Below, piece by piece: positions 5,206-16,805 of a stretch of DNA of 56,111 nucleotides. This DNA is from Actinomycetota bacterium. Its GTDB lineage: Bacteria > Actinomycetota > Actinomycetes > Mycobacteriales > Mycobacteriaceae. The position numbers and the translations under genes were made by a program. Within the stretch, counting starts at the first letter, position 1; each line of letters begins with the position of its first letter. Where the stretch lies: the NCBI GenBank assembly GCA_030836785.1, contig JAUPLT010000229.1, forward strand, positions 1-56,111, given 5' to 3'. The notes under the pieces are model-generated. The model saw only the letters and a program-made list of their open reading frames with translations, made no database searches and was not told where the DNA came from.

Positions 5206-5335
5206 GGCTCAGGCGACGGCTGCGGGCGTTCCTCGAGTTAAATTACCGATGTGTAAACCCGCGGACATCGAGTCCCGTGCTTGCATTACCGTCCATGGGT
5301 CCAACTAGCTTGGCGCGGTGCGGGAGGCAGCTTCG

Positions 5336-8300
5336 GTGGTAGCAAAGTTCGGTGCGCGTGCTGGTGCCGCGGCGTTCGTCCTAGGCCTGTCAGTGGCTGG
5401 GCCGGCAGGGTTTGCCGCGGCCGACACGCCGGATTCCGAATCAGGCTCGGCCCAGGCCGCGGCCGGGGAGTCGGCAGTGCAGACGGCCCCGGCGCGCAGC
5501 ACCCGAGCGAACAAGCCGAGTCGTTCGCGGACCCGCGGCCCCGCCCCCTCGGCAACCTCCGAACGGTTGCCGCGCGAACCGGGGGAGAGGGCCGTCTCAA
5601 CCGGTGATGTCCGGCCGGACAACCCGGCACCTGCTGCTGCCACGCGGCCAGCTGGGCTGACAGCTGCGGCACGCTCATCGGTGTCTGCGCCGACCGCCGC
5701 CGCCACTCGGCGCCCGGTCACCGCTGCTCTGGGTTCCGCGGCCGCGGTCGGCAACACCGACCGCCCAGAGCGCTCGGCGGTAGTGCCGGTGGCGCCCGCC
5801 GCGAGTGTCACCGCGGCCTCCCCGCAGGCGGCGGCAAGCGGGGCAAGCAACTGCGCAGCCTGCTGGGGGGCCGAGGCGCCCTCGATCGCCGCGGCGGTCA
5901 CCACGGCGGTCAACCATGCATTCAATTCGGCGTTCGACTGGCTCGCCAGTCTCCCCGCCAACCCGATCTCCGACCTCGTCGGCGGGGCGCTCGTCCTGAT
6001 CCGGCGGGCATTGTTCCTCGTGCCTGAGGGCGTGACCGTCACCCAGACCACCCCCACGTCGCTGTCGGTGTCGGTGAACACCGGCAGTGTCGCGTACTTC
6101 CGCCATGACGGCACCACCCTTCAGATCTCCGGAGACCCCTGGTTCTTCGGCGCCCAAAGCTATGACGACACCGCCGGACTGGACGTGTCGGTGACCAACA
6201 CCGGCAACGCCGGCTGCGCCGGTATGGTGCTGACCTCCGGCACCGTCAACGGCGACCTGACAACCTCCCAGATCGACTCCATCCGGTTCGGCACGGGTGC
6301 GGCATTCACCGACAAAGTCACCGCATCGGTCTCGGGGGGTCCATTGACCCTGCGCGACGCAGTGCGCGGTCTGACTGGGGTCGAATTGCGCGCACCGGTG
6401 GTCTTGGCCAGCGACGTCGAGATCGATGCCGGAACCAAGAACGCCTTCTTCGGCGGCACCGTCGACGGCACCGCTGAAGGCACGCAGTCCCTGACGGTCA
6501 CCGCGCTGGGCACCACCACCTTCGACGCCGCCGTCGGTGGACAAGTCCCGCTGGCCAGCCTGCTCACCCGAGCCGTCACCCCACTGGACATCCGGCAGTC
6601 GGCCAACACCACGACCATTCCACTGCACTACATGCCGGAGTACTCCACGAGCGGCCAACTCCAGGTCAAGTACGGTATCGACGTCGCGATCGGCGCCAAC
6701 CATTCGCGGACCTTCGTCTTCGACACCGGCGGAAACGGGTTCTTCGCCGGCTACAACCCGGACTACTTCACGGGTGTGACGCTCACCGACGAGCAGGTCG
6801 ACATTGTCTACACGTCCGGCAACTACTACGACGCCGTCGTCGCCAATGCCGTCGTCACCATCGGCCCCGAGGGCGGCCCCCGCGTCTCCACCGTGCGGCC
6901 CGTCCAGATCGGCGCAATCCTGCAGGGCGGCAACCAGTCCGACGGGCAGGTGTTCGACTTCACCAACCCGTTCGCCCCGCCGGTCGACGGACGGTTCTCC
7001 GGTGACTTCGGTGCCGCCTTCGGCGTTCAGCCCAGCGACAATGGCGAGACCGGACTCTCCAGCGTGCTGTTCCAGTTGCCGGGCAACCTTTCCACAGGAT
7101 TCCTGGTTCAGTTGGGGCCCATCGGAATCGATCCGCAGCTGACTGTCGGAATCACCGACGAACTTCGCGACCAGTTCCCCTACGCCATCCCGGTATCGGC
7201 GTTATCCGGCGGCGGTACCTACCCGGTTTCCGGGTATCAGGTTCTCCAGCAGTTCGGGTTCTCCCCGCAGTACTTCGTCTCCTCACCTGAGGGATTGCTG
7301 TATCCCCTTGGCACCGAACAGTTCCAGCAATGCGCGGTCCAGTGCCTGCCCTCGCTGATCGACAGTGGTGCACCGTCGACCAGTGTGCGCCTGCCCGGCG
7401 CACCGACGCCCTTCCCGCTGTCCACCGCGAATAACTCCGCACTGCAACCAGGTTCGACGTTCATCGCGCAGTTCCCGACCACTCAGGGGCGCCCGCCACT
7501 GGAATGGACCTTCGTGGCGGGCAGCATCGGCTCGGTCAACGCGGTGGGCTACGACGACCAGTCGGGCGCTGCGACCACCACCCAGAACGTCAACACCGGA
7601 CTGAACCTCTATAACGGCTACGACGTGATGTTCGACACCCAGAAGCAGGTGATCTGGCTGCGGCCCAACGGCGGTCAGTCGACGGTGAACCTGCAATCGG
7701 TGACCACCACCGGAGACCAGAGCTACCAGCAGAACGCCGTCCTGTCGGGGAGTTACGCCACCGCCTCCGGCGACTTCTCCGTCAGCGGTGTGACCGACCT
7801 CGCCGCCGACACCACCATCAACGCCGGAAGCGGGGCTATCACGTTTTCCGGGACGGTCGACGGACCACACGCGCTGACGGTGAATTCGACGGGGGCAACA
7901 CATTTCGTCCGTGGCGTCGGCCAGCAGATTGCGTTGACGCGCCTCACCACCGATGCCGGTGGATCCACCTCCACTGCCGGTGTCACGACACAGGACGGCC
8001 AGACCTACGGCGACACCGTGACGCTCAACGGCGCCTACCAGGTCAACGACGGGGAGTTCACCGTCGCCGGGGCGGCGACACTGGCCGGTCAGACAAGCAT
8101 CTCGACCACCGGCGGGGATATCACCTTCGTCAGCACGGTGGACGCGACGCCGGGCCAGGGGTTCACGTTGAGGCTGGTCACCGACGGGGGACACACGCAG
8201 CTGAGCGGAGCGGTCGGCGCCGTCAATCCACTCGGCGGCATCGGGATGGCCAATACCGCCGAGCACACCGTCGCGACCGTCACCGCGGCAGGCACCGTCG

Positions 8301-10738
8301 CGGTGAACGGCAGCCTCGGTTACGCCGGATCCTCCGGTCTGTTCATCGGTGACTCCGTCACCGCCGACTTCTCCCACGGCGGTACGATCACCGACTTCAC
8401 CACCAGCGGCGTGGTATTCGAAGGCTCGTCCACGAACTCGACGATCTCGAACTTCACCATCTCCGACAACGTCTACGACGGAATCCAGATCGCCGCGGCC
8501 GCGGGGAGTGTGCCCTACGACTTCACCGGAACTCAGATCTCCGACAACACCATCTACGGCAACTCGGCATTCGGTATCGAGACCCTGGCACCGGTATCGG
8601 GACTGACGATCAGCGGAAACACCATCGGTAAGCAGGGGACGAGCAACCCGTGGGGCTATGTCAGCGACGGGGCCAACGCCCACGGGGTAGTCCTGGCGCC
8701 AGGCACCTACGCCGGTTCCAGCATCAGCGGAAACGTCATCTCCCACAACATGCGCAGCGCCATCTACGCGCCCGGCGGTGTCAAGGGCCTCGACATTTCC
8801 GGAAACGCCCTGAGCGACAACGGAACCCACGGTATCGAGTTCGTCACCGGAGACTTCGCCGGGACCGACATCCAGAACAACGTCATCCGGTCCAACGGTG
8901 CCGATGGAATCTCGCTCGGAGCGGGAATAGGGCAGGGGACACGAACCCCCGGCATCAACCCGTTGGTCGGTTACACCACCGAGGGTGGACGCTACCTCGA
9001 CGCCCACTACGTCCTGCCCTACGCGAACAATCCCGACTTCTACTCCGAGCAGACGCCGCCGCCGGACCCGACGATCCAAATGCGCGTCGGCACCAAACAA
9101 CTCGAGGTCAACCTCGACACCGGCTCGCGTGGACTGTACTTCGACGAAGCCTCGCTGGATCCGAACGTTCTCAGCCAGGGCACCGTCCTGGGGACCGGCC
9201 ACGTCTACCTCAACAGTTCGAACCGGCTGTATTTCGGCGACTGGGTGCAGCTGCCGGTGACGTTCACGCAGTCCTACTTTCAGACAGCCGGCGGCCAGAC
9301 TGACACCAGCCGCAAGGCGGTGGCCACCATGCCGGTGCTCGTGGTGCAGGCGATCGGGGCCTCCACGACTCCCGCCCCTGGGCAGACCCAGGCCAGCACG
9401 ACGTTCAACACCACTATCGACAGCGGATTCGTCACGATCACCAACGGCGCCGGCGATACTCAGCAGGCACCGATCGTGCTCAATCCCAACGACCCCGGTA
9501 CCGGAATCGTGACGATTCCCGGCGGCTACTGGGCCAACTACGCCGACAACGTCGGCAAGCTGGCTCCGGTCGCCAACTTCGGGGTCGGGTTCGACCGCTC
9601 CGGTCAGGGCACCGCCCCCACCGACAACGGGGTCAACCAGGTCTACAACGCGTTCCTGAACCTCACCGAGATGCAGAACGGCACCATGCGGCCGGGGTAT
9701 GTCATGACAGCCCAGGGCGTCACGCTCGGCCTGGACAGCACTGTGTCCGGGTACGCCTACACCGACCTCGCCCCGACCGGGCTGGCCCAGGGCGCCCAGA
9801 CCGCCCCGGACTGGCAACCGGCGACGGGAACCATCACGGCCGGGTCGACGACCTACGGTGTCGGCCAGATCGTCCTCGATATGGGCTACGGAGGCGGAAT
9901 CCTGACCCTGCCCGGCTACGCGCCACCCGGCAGCTTCACCCAGCGCTTCACGGTCAACCTGCTCGACTCGAATGGCGCTGTGCGCTACGACGTGGACCTG
10001 TCCGAGGGCCGGACCAACCTGATGAACCCGGAAAGCATCGACCTGTTCAACCCACTAGCCGGGAACTACTCGCAGAACACTCCACCGCTGAGCCAGCAGT
10101 TCTTCAACACCGGCCGTCCGGCGTTCGCCGGCCTCGACTACCTCTTCGACGCAGGCTCGGGCTATCTGGGCCTTGCCCAAGGGCGGACCCAGCAGGCAGC
10201 GGATGCGCTGGCCTCGGCCAACGGACTCGTTACCCCGGGCTACTACCAGAACGCGACCGCTCCCACGGGGGTCCGCAATCTCACCATCAAGGACAACACC
10301 ATCGCCGATAACGGCGGCGCTGGGGTCGGGGTCAACGGTGCCGGCTCGGTGGGCAACGCCGTCCTCACGAATTCGATCCATTCGAATGTGGGGCAGGGCA
10401 TCTCCCTGACGAATGGGGCCAACGGCGGCCAGCCGGCTCCGGAGTCCGTCGTGGCGAATCGGGTTGCCGACGGGGTCACTGTCCAGGGGACCATGCCGGC
10501 GGTTCCCGGCTACAGCGGAAACTTCACGGTGCAGGTGTTCCGGTCTCCCGCCACGGACGCCGGGAATGTCGAAGGTCGGCAGTATCTCGGCGCCATCCTT
10601 ACTGCCGCGGGTCAATTCCAGGGCCAGCTGCAGGCGACCGGTCTGTTGTCCGGTGACTGGATCACCCTCACCGCAACACCTGTCCAGATCCCCAACAACA
10701 CATCCCAATTCTCAGTACCGGTCCAGATCGAGGTGTAA
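5336..10738 (+). CDS. Giant secreted protein: CAACW/NPxxDLxGGALVLIRR N-terminal module, pepsin-like aspartic protease domain, beta-solenoid/beta-helix with a second protease-like domain inserted
   Basis: Signal peptide MVAKFGARAGAAAFVLGLSVAGPAGFAAA from GTG 5336 with RBS ggaggc; D-T-G at 6722 and D-S-G at 7361 (213 codons apart); parallel beta-helix coils (SGNxI..N) at ~8420-8930 and ~10260-10430; second DTGS at 9116 with DMG at 9878. Confidence 0.85.
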   Translation: MVAKFGARAGAAAFVLGLSVAGPAGFAAADTPDSESGSAQAAAGESAVQTAPARSTRANKPSRSRTRGPAPSATSERLPREPGERAVSTGDVRPDNPAPAAATRPAGLTAAARSSVSAPTAAATRRPVTAALGSAAAVGNTDRPERSAVVPVAPAASVTAASPQAAASGASNCAACWGAEAPSIAAAVTTAVNHAFNSAFDWLASLPANPISDLVGGALVLIRRALFLVPEGVTVTQTTPTSLSVSVNTGSVAYFRHDGTTLQISGDPWFFGAQSYDDTAGLDVSVTNTGNAGCAGMVLTSGTVNGDLTTSQIDSIRFGTGAAFTDKVTASVSGGPLTLRDAVRGLTGVELRAPVVLASDVEIDAGTKNAFFGGTVDGTAEGTQSLTVTALGTTTFDAAVGGQVPLASLLTRAVTPLDIRQSANTTTIPLHYMPEYSTSGQLQVKYGIDVAIGANHSRTFVFDTGGNGFFAGYNPDYFTGVTLTDEQVDIVYTSGNYYDAVVANAVVTIGPEGGPRVSTVRPVQIGAILQGGNQSDGQVFDFTNPFAPPVDGRFSGDFGAAFGVQPSDNGETGLSSVLFQLPGNLSTGFLVQLGPIGIDPQLTVGITDELRDQFPYAIPVSALSGGGTYPVSGYQVLQQFGFSPQYFVSSPEGLLYPLGTEQFQQCAVQCLPSLIDSGAPSTSVRLPGAPTPFPLSTANNSALQPGSTFIAQFPTTQGRPPLEWTFVAGSIGSVNAVGYDDQSGAATTTQNVNTGLNLYNGYDVMFDTQKQVIWLRPNGGQSTVNLQSVTTTGDQSYQQNAVLSGSYATASGDFSVSGVTDLAADTTINAGSGAITFSGTVDGPHALTVNSTGATHFVRGVGQQIALTRLTTDAGGSTSTAGVTTQDGQTYGDTVTLNGAYQVNDGEFTVAGAATLAGQTSISTTGGDITFVSTVDATPGQGFTLRLVTDGGHTQLSGAVGAVNPLGGIGMANTAEHTVATVTAAGTVAVNGSLGYAGSSGLFIGDSVTADFSHGGTITDFTTSGVVFEGSSTNSTISNFTISDNVYDGIQIAAAAGSVPYDFTGTQISDNTIYGNSAFGIETLAPVSGLTISGNTIGKQGTSNPWGYVSDGANAHGVVLAPGTYAGSSISGNVISHNMRSAIYAPGGVKGLDISGNALSDNGTHGIEFVTGDFAGTDIQNNVIRSNGADGISLGAGIGQGTRTPGINPLVGYTTEGGRYLDAHYVLPYANNPDFYSEQTPPPDPTIQMRVGTKQLEVNLDTGSRGLYFDEASLDPNVLSQGTVLGTGHVYLNSSNRLYFGDWVQLPVTFTQSYFQTAGGQTDTSRKAVATMPVLVVQAIGASTTPAPGQTQASTTFNTTIDSGFVTITNGAGDTQQAPIVLNPNDPGTGIVTIPGGYWANYADNVGKLAPVANFGVGFDRSGQGTAPTDNGVNQVYNAFLNLTEMQNGTMRPGYVMTAQGVTLGLDSTVSGYAYTDLAPTGLAQGAQTAPDWQPATGTITAGSTTYGVGQIVLDMGYGGGILTLPGYAPPGSFTQRFTVNLLDSNGAVRYDVDLSEGRTNLMNPESIDLFNPLAGNYSQNTPPLSQQFFNTGRPAFAGLDYLFDAGSGYLGLAQGRTQQAADALASANGLVTPGYYQNATAPTGVRNLTIKDNTIADNGGAGVGVNGAGSVGNAVLTNSIHSNVGQGISLTNGANGGQPAPESVVANRVADGVTVQGTMPAVPGYSGNFTVQVFRSPATDAGNVEGRQYLGAILTAAGQFQGQLQATGLLSGDWITLTATPVQIPNNTSQFSVPVQIEV

Positions 10739-10746
10739 CGGGAGCC

Positions 10747-13700
10747 ATGGCGACAAAGCGCAGTACGCGGGTGGGGGCGGCGGCCTTCGCACTGGGAGTT
10801 TCGTTGGCCGGCCCCCAGGTAGCACTGGCCGGTGCCGACAGCCCGGACTCGGATAGTGCCGCCCAACCGGCGGCCCGCGCCGAGGCCGGCGGCGCCGATT
10901 CGGTGCGCTCCCGCGTTCCGACGCAATCGCGGGACGATGCGGGTGCGGCAGAGGCTGCGGCACCGGAGCCGCGGGGTCCGCGGGCGCGGGTGGCTCCACC
11001 CGCCGACCGCAACCCCGCCGAGCGGCGGCGGATAGCAGCCGAGGGGGCCGTCAGGCAACGCATTCCGGTCGCGACAGCGATGTCACCCACAGTGGCGCAG
11101 CCTGCCGCAGCTGCACGCCGCCCCGCGCCATCAGTCGTCGGCTCGCACACACCCATGCCAGTAGGCGGCCCGGCCGTGGCGCCGGGATCCGCAGCCGTCG
11201 AGGCCGGCGCAGCGGGGCCGTCCGCGGTGGCGCCGGGGGCCGCGTCAGGACTGAGCACCGAGTGCGCCGCTTGCTGGGGAACCCAGGCACCGTCGATCGC
11301 TCAGGCGGCCACGACGGTGGTCAACCATCTGTTCAACTCAGCCTTCGACTGGTTGGCCACCTCTCCGGCGAACCCGCTCACCGATCTTCTCGGGGGTGCG
11401 CTGGTGCTGATCCGGCGAACGTTGTTCTTCGTACCCGACGGGGTCACCGCCAGCCAGACCGGGACAGCGCTGACGGTCTCGGTCAATACCGGCAGCGTTG
11501 CCTACCTGCGTCGGGACGGTACCTCGATCGAGGTATCCGGCGACCCGTGGTTCGTGGGCGCCCAGCGATTCGACGCGGCGACCGTGTCCACCGTGGCGGT
11601 CGGCAATCCCGGCAACGCCGGCTGCGCCGGGTTGGCGGTCACCGCCGGCACCGTCAACGCTGACCTGACGACCTCCCAGATCGACGCGATGCGGTTCGGT
11701 TCCGGTGCGGCGTTCAGCGGACAGGTCGACGCCACCGTCGCCGCAGGACTGCTGAGGCTGACCGATGCGGTGCGCGGCCTTCAGGGAGTTCGGCTGGACG
11801 CCTCGGTCGTTCTCGCCAATGACGTGGAAGTCGACGCGGGAACCGGTGATGCGAAGTTCACCGGTACGGTCGATGCAGCCAGCGCCGGCGAGCAATCGCT
11901 GACGGTAACCGCCCTGCGCACAACAACTTTCGACGCCGCCATCGGGGGCCAGGCCGCATTGGCGAGTCTGCTCACCCGGGGTATCGCCCCGATCGCCATC
12001 GAGCAGTCCGAGGACTCGAAAACCATTCCGCTGCATTACCTGCCGGAGTACAACGCGACCGGCCAACCTCTGGTCAAGTACGGAATCGATGTGTCCATCG
12101 GCGACAATCCGGCGCTGATGTACGAATTCGACACCGGCGGTGTCGCATTCTTCGCCGGCTACAACCGGCAGTACTGGAAGGACGTGCCGCTGACGTCGAC
12201 CGGCGTCGCTGAGGTCTATTCGTCGAGCAACTACTACAACGGCGTCGTGTCGAACACGCCCATCACCCTCGGAACGGGCACCCAGACCGTCTCCACCGTG
12301 CAGCCCATCCAGATCGCCGCCATCCTCGCCGGCGGAGTTGCGAACACTGGCACCGTCTTCGACTTCAGCAACCCCGAGGTTCCGCCCGTTGAGGACCGGT
12401 TTTTCGGCGACTTCGGCGCATCCTTCGACACGCTGGCGGTCAACGGCCTCGACACCCCACTTGCCAACCCGCTGTTCCAGCTGCCGGGAAACCTCTCCAG
12501 CGGATTCTTGGTGCAACTCGGACCGATCGGCATCGACCCGCAGTTGACCGTCGGCGTCACCGATGCGTTGCGCGCCCAGTTCCCCTACGCCGTGCCGGTG
12601 CAGGCAGTGGTGGGGGGAGGCACTTACCCCGTCTCGGGACTGCCGGTCCTGGAATGGTTCGGCTTCTCGCCGAGTTACTACGCCCAGGCCCCGGGCGGAT
12701 CGGAACAGACCATCGGAGTGACCCCGTATCCGCAATGCGCGGTGCAGTGCCTGCCCACGCTCATCGACAGTGGGGCCCCCTCGACCGGTATTCGCCTCAA
12801 AGGCGGTGGCGGCGACCCGTATAACGTCGACAACCAACTGAAACCCGGAGTCAGCCTGATCGCGCGATTCCCGACCACCGAAGGACGTCCGCCACTGGAA
12901 TGGAACTTCGTCGCCGGCAACAACGGATCTGTCAATCTCGTCCAATACCAGCAGGGTTCGCTGATCGACAGCCCGGGCCAGAACGTCAACACCGGGCTTA
13001 ACCTCTACAACGCTTTCGACGTCATGTTCGACGTCAAGAAGCAGGTGATCTGGCTGCGTCCCACCGGTGGTGAATCAATGGTGAGACTGAATTCGGTGAC
13101 CACCACCGGAGACCAGACGTACCGGCAGAACGCCACCCTCGCCGGCACGTATTCCACCGGCGGCGGGAATTTCTCGGTGGCTGGTGTGACAACCCTGCTC
13201 GACGACACCGTCATCAACGCCGACGGCGGCGCCGTCCGGTTCTCCGGAACCGTGGACGGTCCGCATTCCCTCGCGGTGAACAGCACCAGCACAACGGAAT
13301 TCGTCCGCGGCGCCGGGGGAGAGGCAGCCCTGAAATCGCTGCGCACCGATACCGGAGGGTCGACCGCGACCTCGGGTGTCATCACCACCGGCGCCCAGAC
13401 CTACAACGACGACGCAGTACTCAACGGGCAGTACCAGGTGGGCGAAGGTTCGTTCGCGGTGGCCCGAAACGTCAGCCTGACCGGCCCGGTCAGCATCGGT
13501 ACTCCCGGCGGCGACATCATCTTCGGGGGTGCCGTTGACGCCCTGCCGGGCAAGGGCTTGACGCTTGCCTTCACCACGGCACCCGGGCGTCACATCGTGC
13601 TCAGCGGTGACGTCGGTGCCACCAACCCCCTCGGGGGCATTGCCGTGACCAACCCGGGCGGCACTGCCGCCGACCCGGCGAGCCTCTCCGCCGCAGGCTC

Positions 13701-14718
13701 GATCACCCTGACCGGAACTCTCGGATTCGCTGCCGCAGAGGGTATCTCGGTCGCCGACCACGTCACGACCACGTTGACCGGCGGGGGACTGGTCCAGGGG
13801 TTCGCCGAAGCCCAGGGCGGCACTGGCGGGATCGGGATATCCCTCGGCGCGTCGAAGGGCTCCCAAATCAGCGGATTCATCGTGAGCAATAACGCCGCCG
13901 ACGGCATCGTGGCCACCGGGGCCGATGACCTCCGCATCGAGAACGTGGCGATCATCAACAACGGCGGAAGCGGCATCGTGGGCCAGTCCGGCAGCATCAC
14001 AGTGGCCGCCTCGTCGGTCACCGGCAATGGGCTCAACGGTATCGAGTTCGACGGCATCAGCAAGGCGGTGGTCACCGACACCACGATCAGCGGGAACGGT
14101 ATCGGTGGGACTCCCGCCAGCGCCGACGGCATCCAACTCAACAACGCGGTCGACGTGACCGTCGGCGGCAGCACGATCAGCGGAAACACCAAGGCCGGAA
14201 TCCGCTCCACCAACTCCGACACCGTTGCGGTATCGAACAATGTCATCACCGGCAACGGCGCCGTTGGTGTGGTCGTCGACGGCGGGGTGGGCAACTCGAT
14301 CCTGTCCAGTTCGATCTACGCCAATGCCCTACTGGCCGCCACGACGGCCGACGGGATCTCATTGCGCAACGGTGGCAACGCTGACCAGGCAGCTCCGGTG
14401 ATCGATACGGCAGCGTTCCTCGATGGCCGCATCGCGGTAACCGGCACACTGACGCTTCCCGACAGGTACACCGGCGACTACCGGATCCAAGTGTTCTTCA
14501 CCCCGTCGACGACCGCGTCCTCGGTCCAGGGCCAGCAACTGTTGGGCACGATCGTCGTGAACTTCGCCGACGAACGGACCAAAGCCTTCTCGGGCGCGTT
14601 CGTTTCCGTGCCGTCCAGCCCCGGCAACTACGTCACCGCCACGGCCACGCCGTCGACCGGCGACCTGAACACCTCGGAGTTCTCCGTTCCGAGGGTGATC
14701 GGGCCGGTGCAGCTCTGA
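10747..14718 (+). CDS. Secreted paralogue of 5336..10738: one pepsin-like domain plus beta-helix, no second insertion
   Basis: MATKRSTRVGAAAFALGVSLAGPQVALA signal peptide; collinear similarity throughout (CAACWG, DTGG at 12130, DSGA at 12766, right-handed beta-helix coils). Confidence 0.87.
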   Translation: MATKRSTRVGAAAFALGVSLAGPQVALAGADSPDSDSAAQPAARAEAGGADSVRSRVPTQSRDDAGAAEAAAPEPRGPRARVAPPADRNPAERRRIAAEGAVRQRIPVATAMSPTVAQPAAAARRPAPSVVGSHTPMPVGGPAVAPGSAAVEAGAAGPSAVAPGAASGLSTECAACWGTQAPSIAQAATTVVNHLFNSAFDWLATSPANPLTDLLGGALVLIRRTLFFVPDGVTASQTGTALTVSVNTGSVAYLRRDGTSIEVSGDPWFVGAQRFDAATVSTVAVGNPGNAGCAGLAVTAGTVNADLTTSQIDAMRFGSGAAFSGQVDATVAAGLLRLTDAVRGLQGVRLDASVVLANDVEVDAGTGDAKFTGTVDAASAGEQSLTVTALRTTTFDAAIGGQAALASLLTRGIAPIAIEQSEDSKTIPLHYLPEYNATGQPLVKYGIDVSIGDNPALMYEFDTGGVAFFAGYNRQYWKDVPLTSTGVAEVYSSSNYYNGVVSNTPITLGTGTQTVSTVQPIQIAAILAGGVANTGTVFDFSNPEVPPVEDRFFGDFGASFDTLAVNGLDTPLANPLFQLPGNLSSGFLVQLGPIGIDPQLTVGVTDALRAQFPYAVPVQAVVGGGTYPVSGLPVLEWFGFSPSYYAQAPGGSEQTIGVTPYPQCAVQCLPTLIDSGAPSTGIRLKGGGGDPYNVDNQLKPGVSLIARFPTTEGRPPLEWNFVAGNNGSVNLVQYQQGSLIDSPGQNVNTGLNLYNAFDVMFDVKKQVIWLRPTGGESMVRLNSVTTTGDQTYRQNATLAGTYSTGGGNFSVAGVTTLLDDTVINADGGAVRFSGTVDGPHSLAVNSTSTTEFVRGAGGEAALKSLRTDTGGSTATSGVITTGAQTYNDDAVLNGQYQVGEGSFAVARNVSLTGPVSIGTPGGDIIFGGAVDALPGKGLTLAFTTAPGRHIVLSGDVGATNPLGGIAVTNPGGTAADPASLSAAGSITLTGTLGFAAAEGISVADHVTTTLTGGGLVQGFAEAQGGTGGIGISLGASKGSQISGFIVSNNAADGIVATGADDLRIENVAIINNGGSGIVGQSGSITVAASSVTGNGLNGIEFDGISKAVVTDTTISGNGIGGTPASADGIQLNNAVDVTVGGSTISGNTKAGIRSTNSDTVAVSNNVITGNGAVGVVVDGGVGNSILSSSIYANALLAATTADGISLRNGGNADQAAPVIDTAAFLDGRIAVTGTLTLPDRYTGDYRIQVFFTPSTTASSVQGQQLLGTIVVNFADERTKAFSGAFVSVPSSPGNYVTATATPSTGDLNTSEFSVPRVIGPVQL

Positions 14719-14732
14719 TCGGTCGGTGAAAT

Positions 14733-16805
14733 CTAGGTTCGGATCTGCCACCCGACCGACGGATCCAGCGCCAGGCTGAGGACGTCGACCGCCTCGAAGG
14801 CACTCATCGGGATGGTGCTGAGTTCCTGCTGAGCAGTCAGGTGATCGGTCCCGGTCCAGCCGTTGCCCATGGCCAACAGCCCGGCTCCGTCTCGTCCCTC
14901 CCCGAACGAGTCGTAGATCACCGCGCCGTGCTGCTGTAGCGCACGCAGGACCACCTGGGTGGCCGGATCGTAGGTTGAGATGTCGAAGTCGGCGCGCAAC
15001 CGGAATACCGTGCCCATCGGGACACCGTCCGGGTTGGTGCCGGTGCCGTCGCCGGCCAGGGCCGGCCAGCTGTGCCCGGTTCCGCGGTCCTTGGCGATGA
15101 CGATGCCCAGCATGTGGTCGATCTCGCCCCGTTCGAGGTCGTCAGGGCGAAGCATCAGCGGCAGATAGGGCAGTTTCGCCGCGTTGGCCGCACCGATCGT
15201 CGGGTAGAACGGCGAACTCATGTCGTAGTGCACGCCGGCTTCGGCGATCCAGGCCGATCCCCACAATGCGGCGTACGCGGCGTTACCCAACGCGTCGAGA
15301 ACGCCGGCGGCCGGCAGTTCCACTCCGTTGGCGACGTTGATCAACTCCTGGGAGATGCAGGTTCCGGTCTGGAACACCAGCAGGTGCCGATCCCAGGCCG
15401 GAACATCGGGCATGCCCTCAACGAGCGGGTAGTCCGGGATGGCGTAGGGGCGGTCGTCGATATTGGGTCCGGTGGTCGAATATCCGCGGTTGAAGATGAC
15501 TGTCTCGGTGGGGTGGTCGGGGCCGACGATGTTGACCGGCATTGTGGCGGAACTTCCCATCCACGGCGTGGTCTGCCATCGGGCTATCAGGGTGCCGCCG
15601 ATCAGATCGGTCCACGTCTGCGACTCCGCAAGGACCGGCAGGGGACTGACGTCGGCGTGGAAGACGGTGTCCGCGGGCATCAGTGTGCAGCCGCAGAACG
15701 TCGACAGATCGCGCACCGGAGCGCCCGCAACGAAGGTGACCATCACCGGTACCAGGACGCTGCCGCCGTAGCCATCCTCGATCGTCACGGTGAACTGATC
15801 TTGCCGGTCGGCCGCCGTCGCGCCGGGGGCAGAGGCGGCGGCGAGGGCTTCCGCACCGGGGGAGTAGGTGAATTCACCCGAGTCGGTCACCGCGACAGCA
15901 CCCTTGGCCGGTGCCGTTGAGGCCAGATAGGTCAGCGGGTCGCCGTTGGGATCCGAGCCGAGAATCCTGCCGGTGAGCACGCCGGTGACCGGATCGGGCG
16001 GGTCGAGGCGAAGTGTCGCAGACGGTGCGTTGTTGAACGGCGCGACGCTCACGCGGACTGTTGTGGTGGCGGTGTGCCCGGCAGTGCCCACCAGGCCGAA
16101 GGTGAGCAGGTTCAGCAATCCCTCGAGCCCGTGGAGGTGGAAGCCGCCACCGGCGTCGCTGGCGGTCACCTCGAAGGAGTCGACGGAATCACTGCGCGCC
16201 AGCATCGGATCGGCGGTGTACGTGTACTGCCCGGACGGGCTGAGCGTCACAGTGCCGTGGGCCGGGGCGCGGGTCACGGCAAGTCCGATGGGGTCGCCGT
16301 CGTGGTCGGTGGCGTCCACTGACCCGCTGACGATCCCGCCGGGTGATTGCCCGGTCTGGATCCCAACGGGTCGCGGAGCGGAGTTGCCCAGCAGTGCTGT
16401 CAGCGGATCGGACCGGGTGACCGCAGCAAGCGGCGGTGTACCCGGGGAGGCCTTCGTCTGAGCCGCGGCAGGGCGCTGGGAGTCCGCAACCCGCTGGACG
16501 GCCGCCGGGGCCGGCTTCGACCCCCGTTGCCGTGGCGGTGCTGCCGTGTGCCGTGCGCCTGAGCCGACGCCCGGGAACGTTTTCGCCTGGCGCGCAGTCG
16601 CCGTGGCCCGGGAACGTTGGTCGGCGGAGCGGACCGCATCGGCTGAGCCGTCGTCAGCCGGATCTGCCGCAGCCACCCCGGTACCGGCAAGAAGCACCGT
16701 CGCCGCTCCGGTGGCGGCCGAAAGGACAGCCCAGCCGACCCCCGCCGCGATCGTCGTGCCGCTGATTCGCCGCCCTGTGAACATCCCCGGCCCCTTTGCT
16801 CGCAC
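14733..16805 (-). CDS. Secreted VCBS/Ig-like repeat protein with uncharacterised C-terminal domain
   Basis: Signal peptide; VSGSVDATDHDGDPIGLAVTRAPAHGTVTLSPSGQYTYTAD and GVLTGRILGSDPNGDPLTYLASTAPAKGAVAVTDSGEFTYSP tandem VCBS/cadherin-like modules; LLNLLTFGLVGTAGHTATTTVRVSV mycobacterial motif. Confidence 0.8.
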   Translation of the reverse strand: MRAKGPGMFTGRRISGTTIAAGVGWAVLSAATGAATVLLAGTGVAAADPADDGSADAVRSADQRSRATATARQAKTFPGVGSGARHTAAPPRQRGSKPAPAAVQRVADSQRPAAAQTKASPGTPPLAAVTRSDPLTALLGNSAPRPVGIQTGQSPGGIVSGSVDATDHDGDPIGLAVTRAPAHGTVTLSPSGQYTYTADPMLARSDSVDSFEVTASDAGGGFHLHGLEGLLNLLTFGLVGTAGHTATTTVRVSVAPFNNAPSATLRLDPPDPVTGVLTGRILGSDPNGDPLTYLASTAPAKGAVAVTDSGEFTYSPGAEALAAASAPGATAADRQDQFTVTIEDGYGGSVLVPVMVTFVAGAPVRDLSTFCGCTLMPADTVFHADVSPLPVLAESQTWTDLIGGTLIARWQTTPWMGSSATMPVNIVGPDHPTETVIFNRGYSTTGPNIDDRPYAIPDYPLVEGMPDVPAWDRHLLVFQTGTCISQELINVANGVELPAAGVLDALGNAAYAALWGSAWIAEAGVHYDMSSPFYPTIGAANAAKLPYLPLMLRPDDLERGEIDHMLGIVIAKDRGTGHSWPALAGDGTGTNPDGVPMGTVFRLRADFDISTYDPATQVVLRALQQHGAVIYDSFGEGRDGAGLLAMGNGWTGTDHLTAQQELSTIPMSAFEAVDVLSLALDPSVGWQIRT

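Follow-up and report, generated by a model that had tools for sequence, protein, structure and literature searches.

A mycobacterial gene for a predicted secreted beta-solenoid/beta-helix protein with two pepsin-like domains, the second divergent at one catalytic site

The gene referred to here as P1 (ORF 5318-10738, + strand, GTG start) encodes a protein of 1806 aa in which two pepsin-like domains are seated in a beta-solenoid/beta-helix scaffold. It is located in the window (the whole 56,111-nt stretch of DNA that was analysed), which is one contig of a 4.0 Mb genome in 397 contigs; those relatives of the locus that carry names belong to Mycobacterium or Mycolicibacterium. The reading we favour, and hold to be probable, is that P1 is a Sec-exported rod displaying two pepsin-fold domains, the first a protease and the second a modified protease or a partner. 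The product would be envelope-associated or extracellular, with both domains borne as side branches of the rod. Domain 1, which has a complete two-Asp site, would most likely cleave surface or environmental proteins as an aspartic endopeptidase and, by analogy with PecA, perhaps also process the protein itself. Domain 2 would be a divergent member of the same superfamily that has both Asp and a hydrophobic residue in place of the second-site Thr/Ser, and most likely either works as a modified protease or assists as a partner that binds substrate. The analysis itself shows the domain layout, the fold of domain 1, the conservation and the homology of domain 2; export, location, proteolysis and the sharing of tasks between the domains are inferred from these. 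The features of P1 are as follows.

5318..10738, + strand: P1, predicted secreted protein with two protease-like domains (1806 aa); open frame, layout common to homologues
5318..5425, + strand: probable Sec signal peptide, aa 1-36; read by eye, N terminus of the paralogue P2 similar
5426..5842, + strand: Ala/Pro-rich linker, probably disordered, aa 37-175; from the composition of the translation
5852..6025, + strand: conserved segment, probably helical, aa 179-236; from blastp and translations, common to P2 and to stand-alone relatives of 620-674 aa
6035..6601, + strand: beta-solenoid upstream of domain 1, aa 240-428; AF2 model from aa 330 (pLDDT mostly >90) and repeat identity with the solenoid after domain 1
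6602..7672, + strand: domain 1, predicted bilobal pepsin fold, aa 429-785; AF2 model, VIA, Foldseek
6722..6730, + strand: first catalytic motif DTG of domain 1, Asp469 (DTGG); Asp in 29/29 aligned rows
6809..6811, + strand: Tyr498 (YTSG), candidate flap Tyr by analogy; conserved at 90% or more in alignment A6
7361..7369, + strand: second catalytic motif DSG of domain 1, Asp682 (DSGA); Asp in 29/29 aligned rows
7685..8347, + strand: beta-solenoid repeats after domain 1, aa 790-1010; AF2 strands to aa 900 and repeat match
8405..8920, + strand: right-handed beta-helix preceding domain 2, aa 1030-1201; Pfam PF13229, AF2 blocks mostly at pLDDT 66-95 with one at 36
8957..10237, + strand: domain 2, inserted pepsin-like domain, aa 1214-1640; profile homology with controls, structure model poor
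9116..9124, + strand: first motif DTG of domain 2, Asp1267 (DTGS); invariant in the domain-2 alignment A2 and in 13 fused rows
9206..9208, + strand: Tyr1297 (YLNSS), candidate flap Tyr by analogy; Tyr in 10/11 aligned rows, Phe in BiH015
9878..9886, + strand: second motif of domain 2, degenerate D-M-G, Asp1521; Asp invariant, followed by M, I or L in 13/13 fused copies
10259..10735, + strand: beta-helix resuming near aa 1648, followed by a C-terminal beta region; Pfam stretches, end of P2 aligning at aa 1680-1804

The reading frame of P1 is open from end to end, and the motif positions given in a preliminary description of this DNA (DTGG at 6722, DSGA at 7361, DTGS at 9116 and DMG at 9878) were all recovered. 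The same description placed the domains in a beta-solenoid and beta-helix scaffold, a view borne out by AF2 strands, by repeat identity and by an over-threshold match to Beta_helix PF13229 (whole-protein score 60.1 bits, gathering score 25.9) that extends over three stretches, the best being aa 1030-1201. It had further proposed an ordinary signal peptide, and the N terminus indeed reads by eye as a putative Sec signal. No PE domain, the N-terminal hallmark of PE-PGRS_C/PecA membership, was detected in P1 or P2 in a Pfam scan up to E 1, as had been anticipated. A DNA repeat search returned short families only.

Domain 1 is predicted to be a bilobal pepsin fold, with its DTGG (aa 469) and DSGA (aa 682) spaced by 213 codons. 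The AF2 model (aa 330-900, 24 sequences) has a mean pLDDT of 92.1 and a pTM of 0.91, and comparison by VIA aligned 279 of its residues to the Irpex aspartic proteinase 1wkr (Z 24.9, rmsd 3.1), with Z >23 for pepsin, cathepsin D and renin and Z of at least 8 in 587 of the 992 aligned chains; most rows span model positions 100-456, that is aa 429-785. The 50 Foldseek matches listed are all pepsin-like aspartic proteases, several of them titled by their inhibitor alone, and include the mycobacterial structure 4EHC (TMt 0.70). Structure modelling and fold search, proposed earlier as a check, thus agree with the pepsin fold first suspected from the motifs. At the sequence level, the residue that follows the Asp is T, S or A at the first site (A in HRSbin141) and S or T at the second, so that domain 1 has both the two-Asp D-T/S-G motif and the bilobal fold of A1-like aspartic peptidases. 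Its profile also aligns with that of PE-PGRS_C, both Asp being in register, along 236 columns at E 1.5e-5. The solenoid had been described as following domain 1; this is correct, but it also precedes the domain. Across 57 columns, the repeat ahead of it (aa 363-419) shares 44% identity with the one that follows, and domain 1 is therefore itself an insertion within one repeat array, which had been missed.

As to domain 2, a separate segment bearing DTGS and DMG does lie within the beta-helix, although it measures about 430 aa (aa 1214-1640) rather than the 370 first estimated. Both of its Asp, like those of domain 1, passed the conservation check that had been suggested for the catalytic residues, as they are found in all 13 fused copies (the window, nine other mycobacterial and three planctomycete copies, G524 and G470 being read from the alignment) and in all ten stand-alone relatives. 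In the fused copies the residue after the second Asp is M in nine, I in two and L in two, while it is T in each of the ten stand-alone proteins. Domain 2 consequently lacks the two D-T/S-G motifs of A1-like peptidases, with both Asp present and a second site that reads D-[MIL]-G. The Thr/Ser beside the second Asp takes part in the active-site hydrogen-bond network. Candidate counterparts of the hydrophobic-hydrophobic-Gly motif, picked by eye, are DFG (domain 1) or NFG (domain 2) in the first lobe, and the second lobe has NTG instead, like PE-PGRS_C. Codon comparisons of two close pairs gave dN/dS values of 0.07 and 0.19 for domain 1 and of 0.15 and 0.32 for domain 2, which indicates, for these pairs, purifying selection on both domains that is weaker on domain 2. 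An IDSG at 9419, mentioned in the preliminary description, is present in the window but occurs in this copy only, the position not being Asp in ten aligned relatives; it is not conserved and was hence rejected as a catalytic site.

These observations lend weight to an account in which domain 2 is a pseudoprotease that has kept the fold and both Asp, has lost peptidase activity via D-[MIL]-G and binds a substrate or partner for domain 1. The hydrophobic residue present in 13/13 fused copies where 10/10 stand-alone proteins have T, together with a dN/dS above that of domain 1 in both pairs, would fit such a loss. A domain devoted to binding would, however, have no need of the two Asp and of the candidate flap Tyr, which are conserved except that one copy has Phe for the Tyr, and we give this account slightly less than an even chance. 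The favoured reading, in which domain 2 may be either a modified protease or a partner of the domain-1 protease, leaves room for a division of labour between the two domains.

The gene immediately downstream encodes a tandem paralogue, P2, whose features are listed below.

10747..14718, + strand: P2, tandem paralogue of 1323 aa, domain 1 present and domain 2 absent; 52% by blastp, start 8 bases past the P1 stop
12130..12138, + strand: first catalytic motif DTG of P2
12766..12774, + strand: second catalytic motif DSG of P2

The two proteins align by blastp with 52% identity over 1178 columns, and the alignment is interrupted between about aa 1139 and aa 1680 of P1, in agreement with the earlier statement that the paralogue runs through this region without the second-domain insertion. 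In the window, P1 and P2 lie between corA and a Big/cadherin-type gene, whereas in HKST-UBA39 (L087) a P2-type gene is found there alone. The Big/cadherin-type gene (14736-16805, - strand), convergent to P2, encodes a 690-aa protein with Big_9/cadherin-like repeats, a signal-like N terminus, tandem-95/VCBS repeats according to NCBIfam and weak matches to adhesin families. In M. litorale F4 (L046/L089 and L045/L085), P1-type and P2-type genes are broken over several frames, by decay or sequencing error.

Proximity to this neighbour, with its weak adhesin-family matches, would suit a second alternative, in which neither domain is a peptidase and the rod resembles an adhesin, with the pepsin folds as its modules for adhesion or for binding peptides. 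A precedent exists in PE_PGRS16, which has the fold and both motifs and for which proteolytic activity was not observed, according to PMC6819658; fold and Asp conservation are therefore no proof of activity. Against this stand the two domain-1 Asp, invariant across 29 rows, and the activity demonstrated for PecA, a mycobacterial surface aspartic protease whose DTG Asp is required for self-cleavage and for PE_PGRS processing (PMC6819658). We regard the adhesion alternative as improbable, and proteolysis by domain 1 as the better expectation.

The structural check on domain 2 did not yield a confident fold: the AF2 model (aa 1000-1806, 9 sequences) has a mean pLDDT of 57 with much of the insert below 50, and a fold search with it returned mainly beta-helix proteins and a few weak single-chain HIV protease rows (E 0.03-0.07), which were not counted as evidence. 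Searches of Pfam, NCBIfam and PDB sequences, run with single domains and with the A1 and A2 profiles, gave no aspartic-protease match for P1, P2, P0003 or P0004, and domain 2 alone matched neither an aspartic-protease family (Pfam, NCBIfam) nor a PDB sequence. The case for a pepsin-like domain 2 therefore rests on profiles, built from the domain-2 alignment (A2), from the ten stand-alone mycobacterial proteins (A4), from domain 2 plus those ten (A8) and from domain 1 plus its stand-alone relatives (A9). With hhalign, A4 aligns to A2 at E 3.9e-27 over 308 columns with both Asp in register, and A8 to A9 at E 3.8e-9 over 295 columns, again with both Asp aligned. The latter pair scores 53.3; the reversed alignment gives 17.6, and none of 60 column shuffles exceeded 23.2. 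The remaining five profile pairs likewise score above their reversed or shuffled controls. When the stand-alone relatives are left out, the match between domain 1 and domain 2 is weak (prob 9, E 0.0036), with a score of 35.5 and a shuffled maximum of 26.9. A8, and no other profile, reached 4EHC (PE_PGRS16) among PDB sequences (E 6e-6), a link that covers the first lobe, and the PE-PGRS_C profile aligns to domain-2 profiles over just 43 and 50 columns, which surround the first Asp, in that lobe. At the level of profiles, then, the evidence supports the proposal that domain 2 is a pepsin-like domain inserted in the beta-helix. That it has some other beta-rich fold with a coincidental DTG, as the poor model and missing family and PDB matches might suggest, is very unlikely in view of this controlled profile chain and of the domain-2 piece of the broken M. 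litorale copy, which matches PF20729 at E 1.4e-5, under the curated cut-off.

The two-protease module is scattered among environmental mycobacteria, and three planctomycete MAGs have it as well. Of the 251 genomes in the family sample, three gave a domain-1 match at E 0.001, one of them marginal and from another genus, and two gave a domain-2 match; in the genus sample each domain was found in 18 of 396 genomes. The 18 genomes with domain 2 comprise ten with a long fused protein (including the window, and two cut by contig ends), six with stand-alone forms only, one with broken frames (G258) and one with a fragment (G576). Of the 20 loci given by a scan of genome contigs, 16 bear the titles of mycobacteria or uncultured actinobacteria, three are from planctomycete MAGs and one is titled Bifidobacterium breve (L097). 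The record titles of L097 and of L095 (Candidatus Kuenenia; GC 0.66) look doubtful. Both domains are present in the planctomycete proteins, as a single frame of 2482 aa in L095, in 1477 aa in L092 and in two frames with an N run between them in L090. The three MAG genomes have 55, 58 and 27 matches to PSCyt2, a family that we take to be typical of planctomycetes. The planctomycete copies presumably bear a LEPR-XLL resemblance, and none of the planctomycete N-terminal signal models of NCBIfam matched L090, L092 or L095. In the planctomycete phylum sample only the starting genome matched (1/294), and a plasmid search gave no match for either domain.

In the domain-1 tree, the planctomycete rows fall outside a 29-row group (96/100) of other long proteins, while the domain-2 tree gives them no firm order. 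At least three changes between the one- and two-domain states are needed on the tree. Clade tests, which included the nested row L094 (cut by a contig end, with a domain layout that is not readable), were made with all two-domain rows as one clade (p 0.353), with the mycobacterial two-domain rows as one clade (p 0.461) and with all one-domain rows as one clade (p 0.467). None of the three was rejected; a single gain and a single loss are both compatible with the tree, which does not decide between gain and loss of domain 2. Transfer from phylum to phylum, in whichever direction, would be the likely cause of the patchy distribution. A fuller scenario, combining a two-protease rod with fixed repeat boundaries, horizontal transfer between mycobacteria and planctomycetes, and a second protease that works via D-[MIL]-G and cooperates with the first, is doubtful as a whole.

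The HMM check for PE_PGRS aspartyl protease families had a mixed outcome, as the domains have no over-threshold match but do show the profile-level links to PF20729 and 4EHC. P0003 and P0004 did not match PF20729 (PE-PGRS_C) or NF038019 (PecA) and thus fall outside these families at their cut-offs. Small stand-alone relatives of domain 2 were found in ten sampled mycobacterial genomes (L066-L076 and L005) and are lipoprotein-like in those read, several of the ten having a lipobox-like N terminus by eye. The two that were scanned came closer to the families, with E 2.2e-6 and 6.4e-7 for PF20729 (27.7 and 29.4 bits, cut-off 33) and E 6.4e-4 and 1.5e-4 for NF038019 (19.1 and 21.2 bits, cut-off 150). 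Judged from sequence, the stand-alone group looks like an uncatalogued PecA-like branch. Stand-alone domain-1-like proteins have no family match either; three secreted-looking ones of 620-674 aa (L044:2512-4371, L046:14789-16810 and L053:7674-9593) combine the helical N-terminal segment of P1 with a domain-1-like protease without the beta-solenoid, and two of them are near fused copies. The genome of the window also has an over-threshold PE-PGRS_C gene (G000:C52:18947-19780), and both kinds of aspartic protease may coexist in it.

If the favoured reading is true, P1 represents an architecture apart from the PE/type VII proteases, apparently Sec-exported, in which each chain carries two pepsin domains. 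The fused domain 2 makes the dispensability of the Thr/Ser beside the second Asp a testable matter, and the planctomycete copies would be a case of a whole multi-domain protease common to two phyla. In the titles and abstract openings of the open literature, a scope that mostly excludes subscription papers, no account of a pepsin domain set into a beta-helix in bacteria was found.

Among known systems, the right-handed beta-helix family PF13229 is matched by P1 above threshold, best at aa 1030-1201, but the beta-helix of P1 has a domain of 430 residues set into it. Eukaryotic pepsins (1wkr, pepsin, cathepsin D) agree in fold with domain 1 along its full bilobal extent (Z 23-25), yet with 14-17% identity and for the protease domain alone, without the beta-solenoid. 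The bacterial pepsin homologues of peptidase family A1 have the same two-Asp bilobal fold as domain 1 but are reported to be without signal peptides and were regarded as intracellular (Rawlings and Bateman 2009, PMC2761423), whereas the N terminus of P1 reads as a putative signal peptide. Finally, an aspartic protease domain has been described in PE proteins (PMC4758615), and the PE_PGRS proteases (PecA, which is PE_PGRS35; PE_PGRS16, which is 4EHC; PF20729) resemble P1 in being mycobacterial and, as is likely for P1, located outside the cytoplasm, in their pepsin-like fold with two D-T/S-G sites and in an NTG near the C-terminal end. They differ in carrying PE/PGRS regions and in using type VII secretion, whereas no PE domain was found in P1, which begins with what reads as a Sec signal; its domains are, moreover, larger, seated in a beta-solenoid/beta-helix and connected to these families by profile-level links rather than by direct over-threshold matches.
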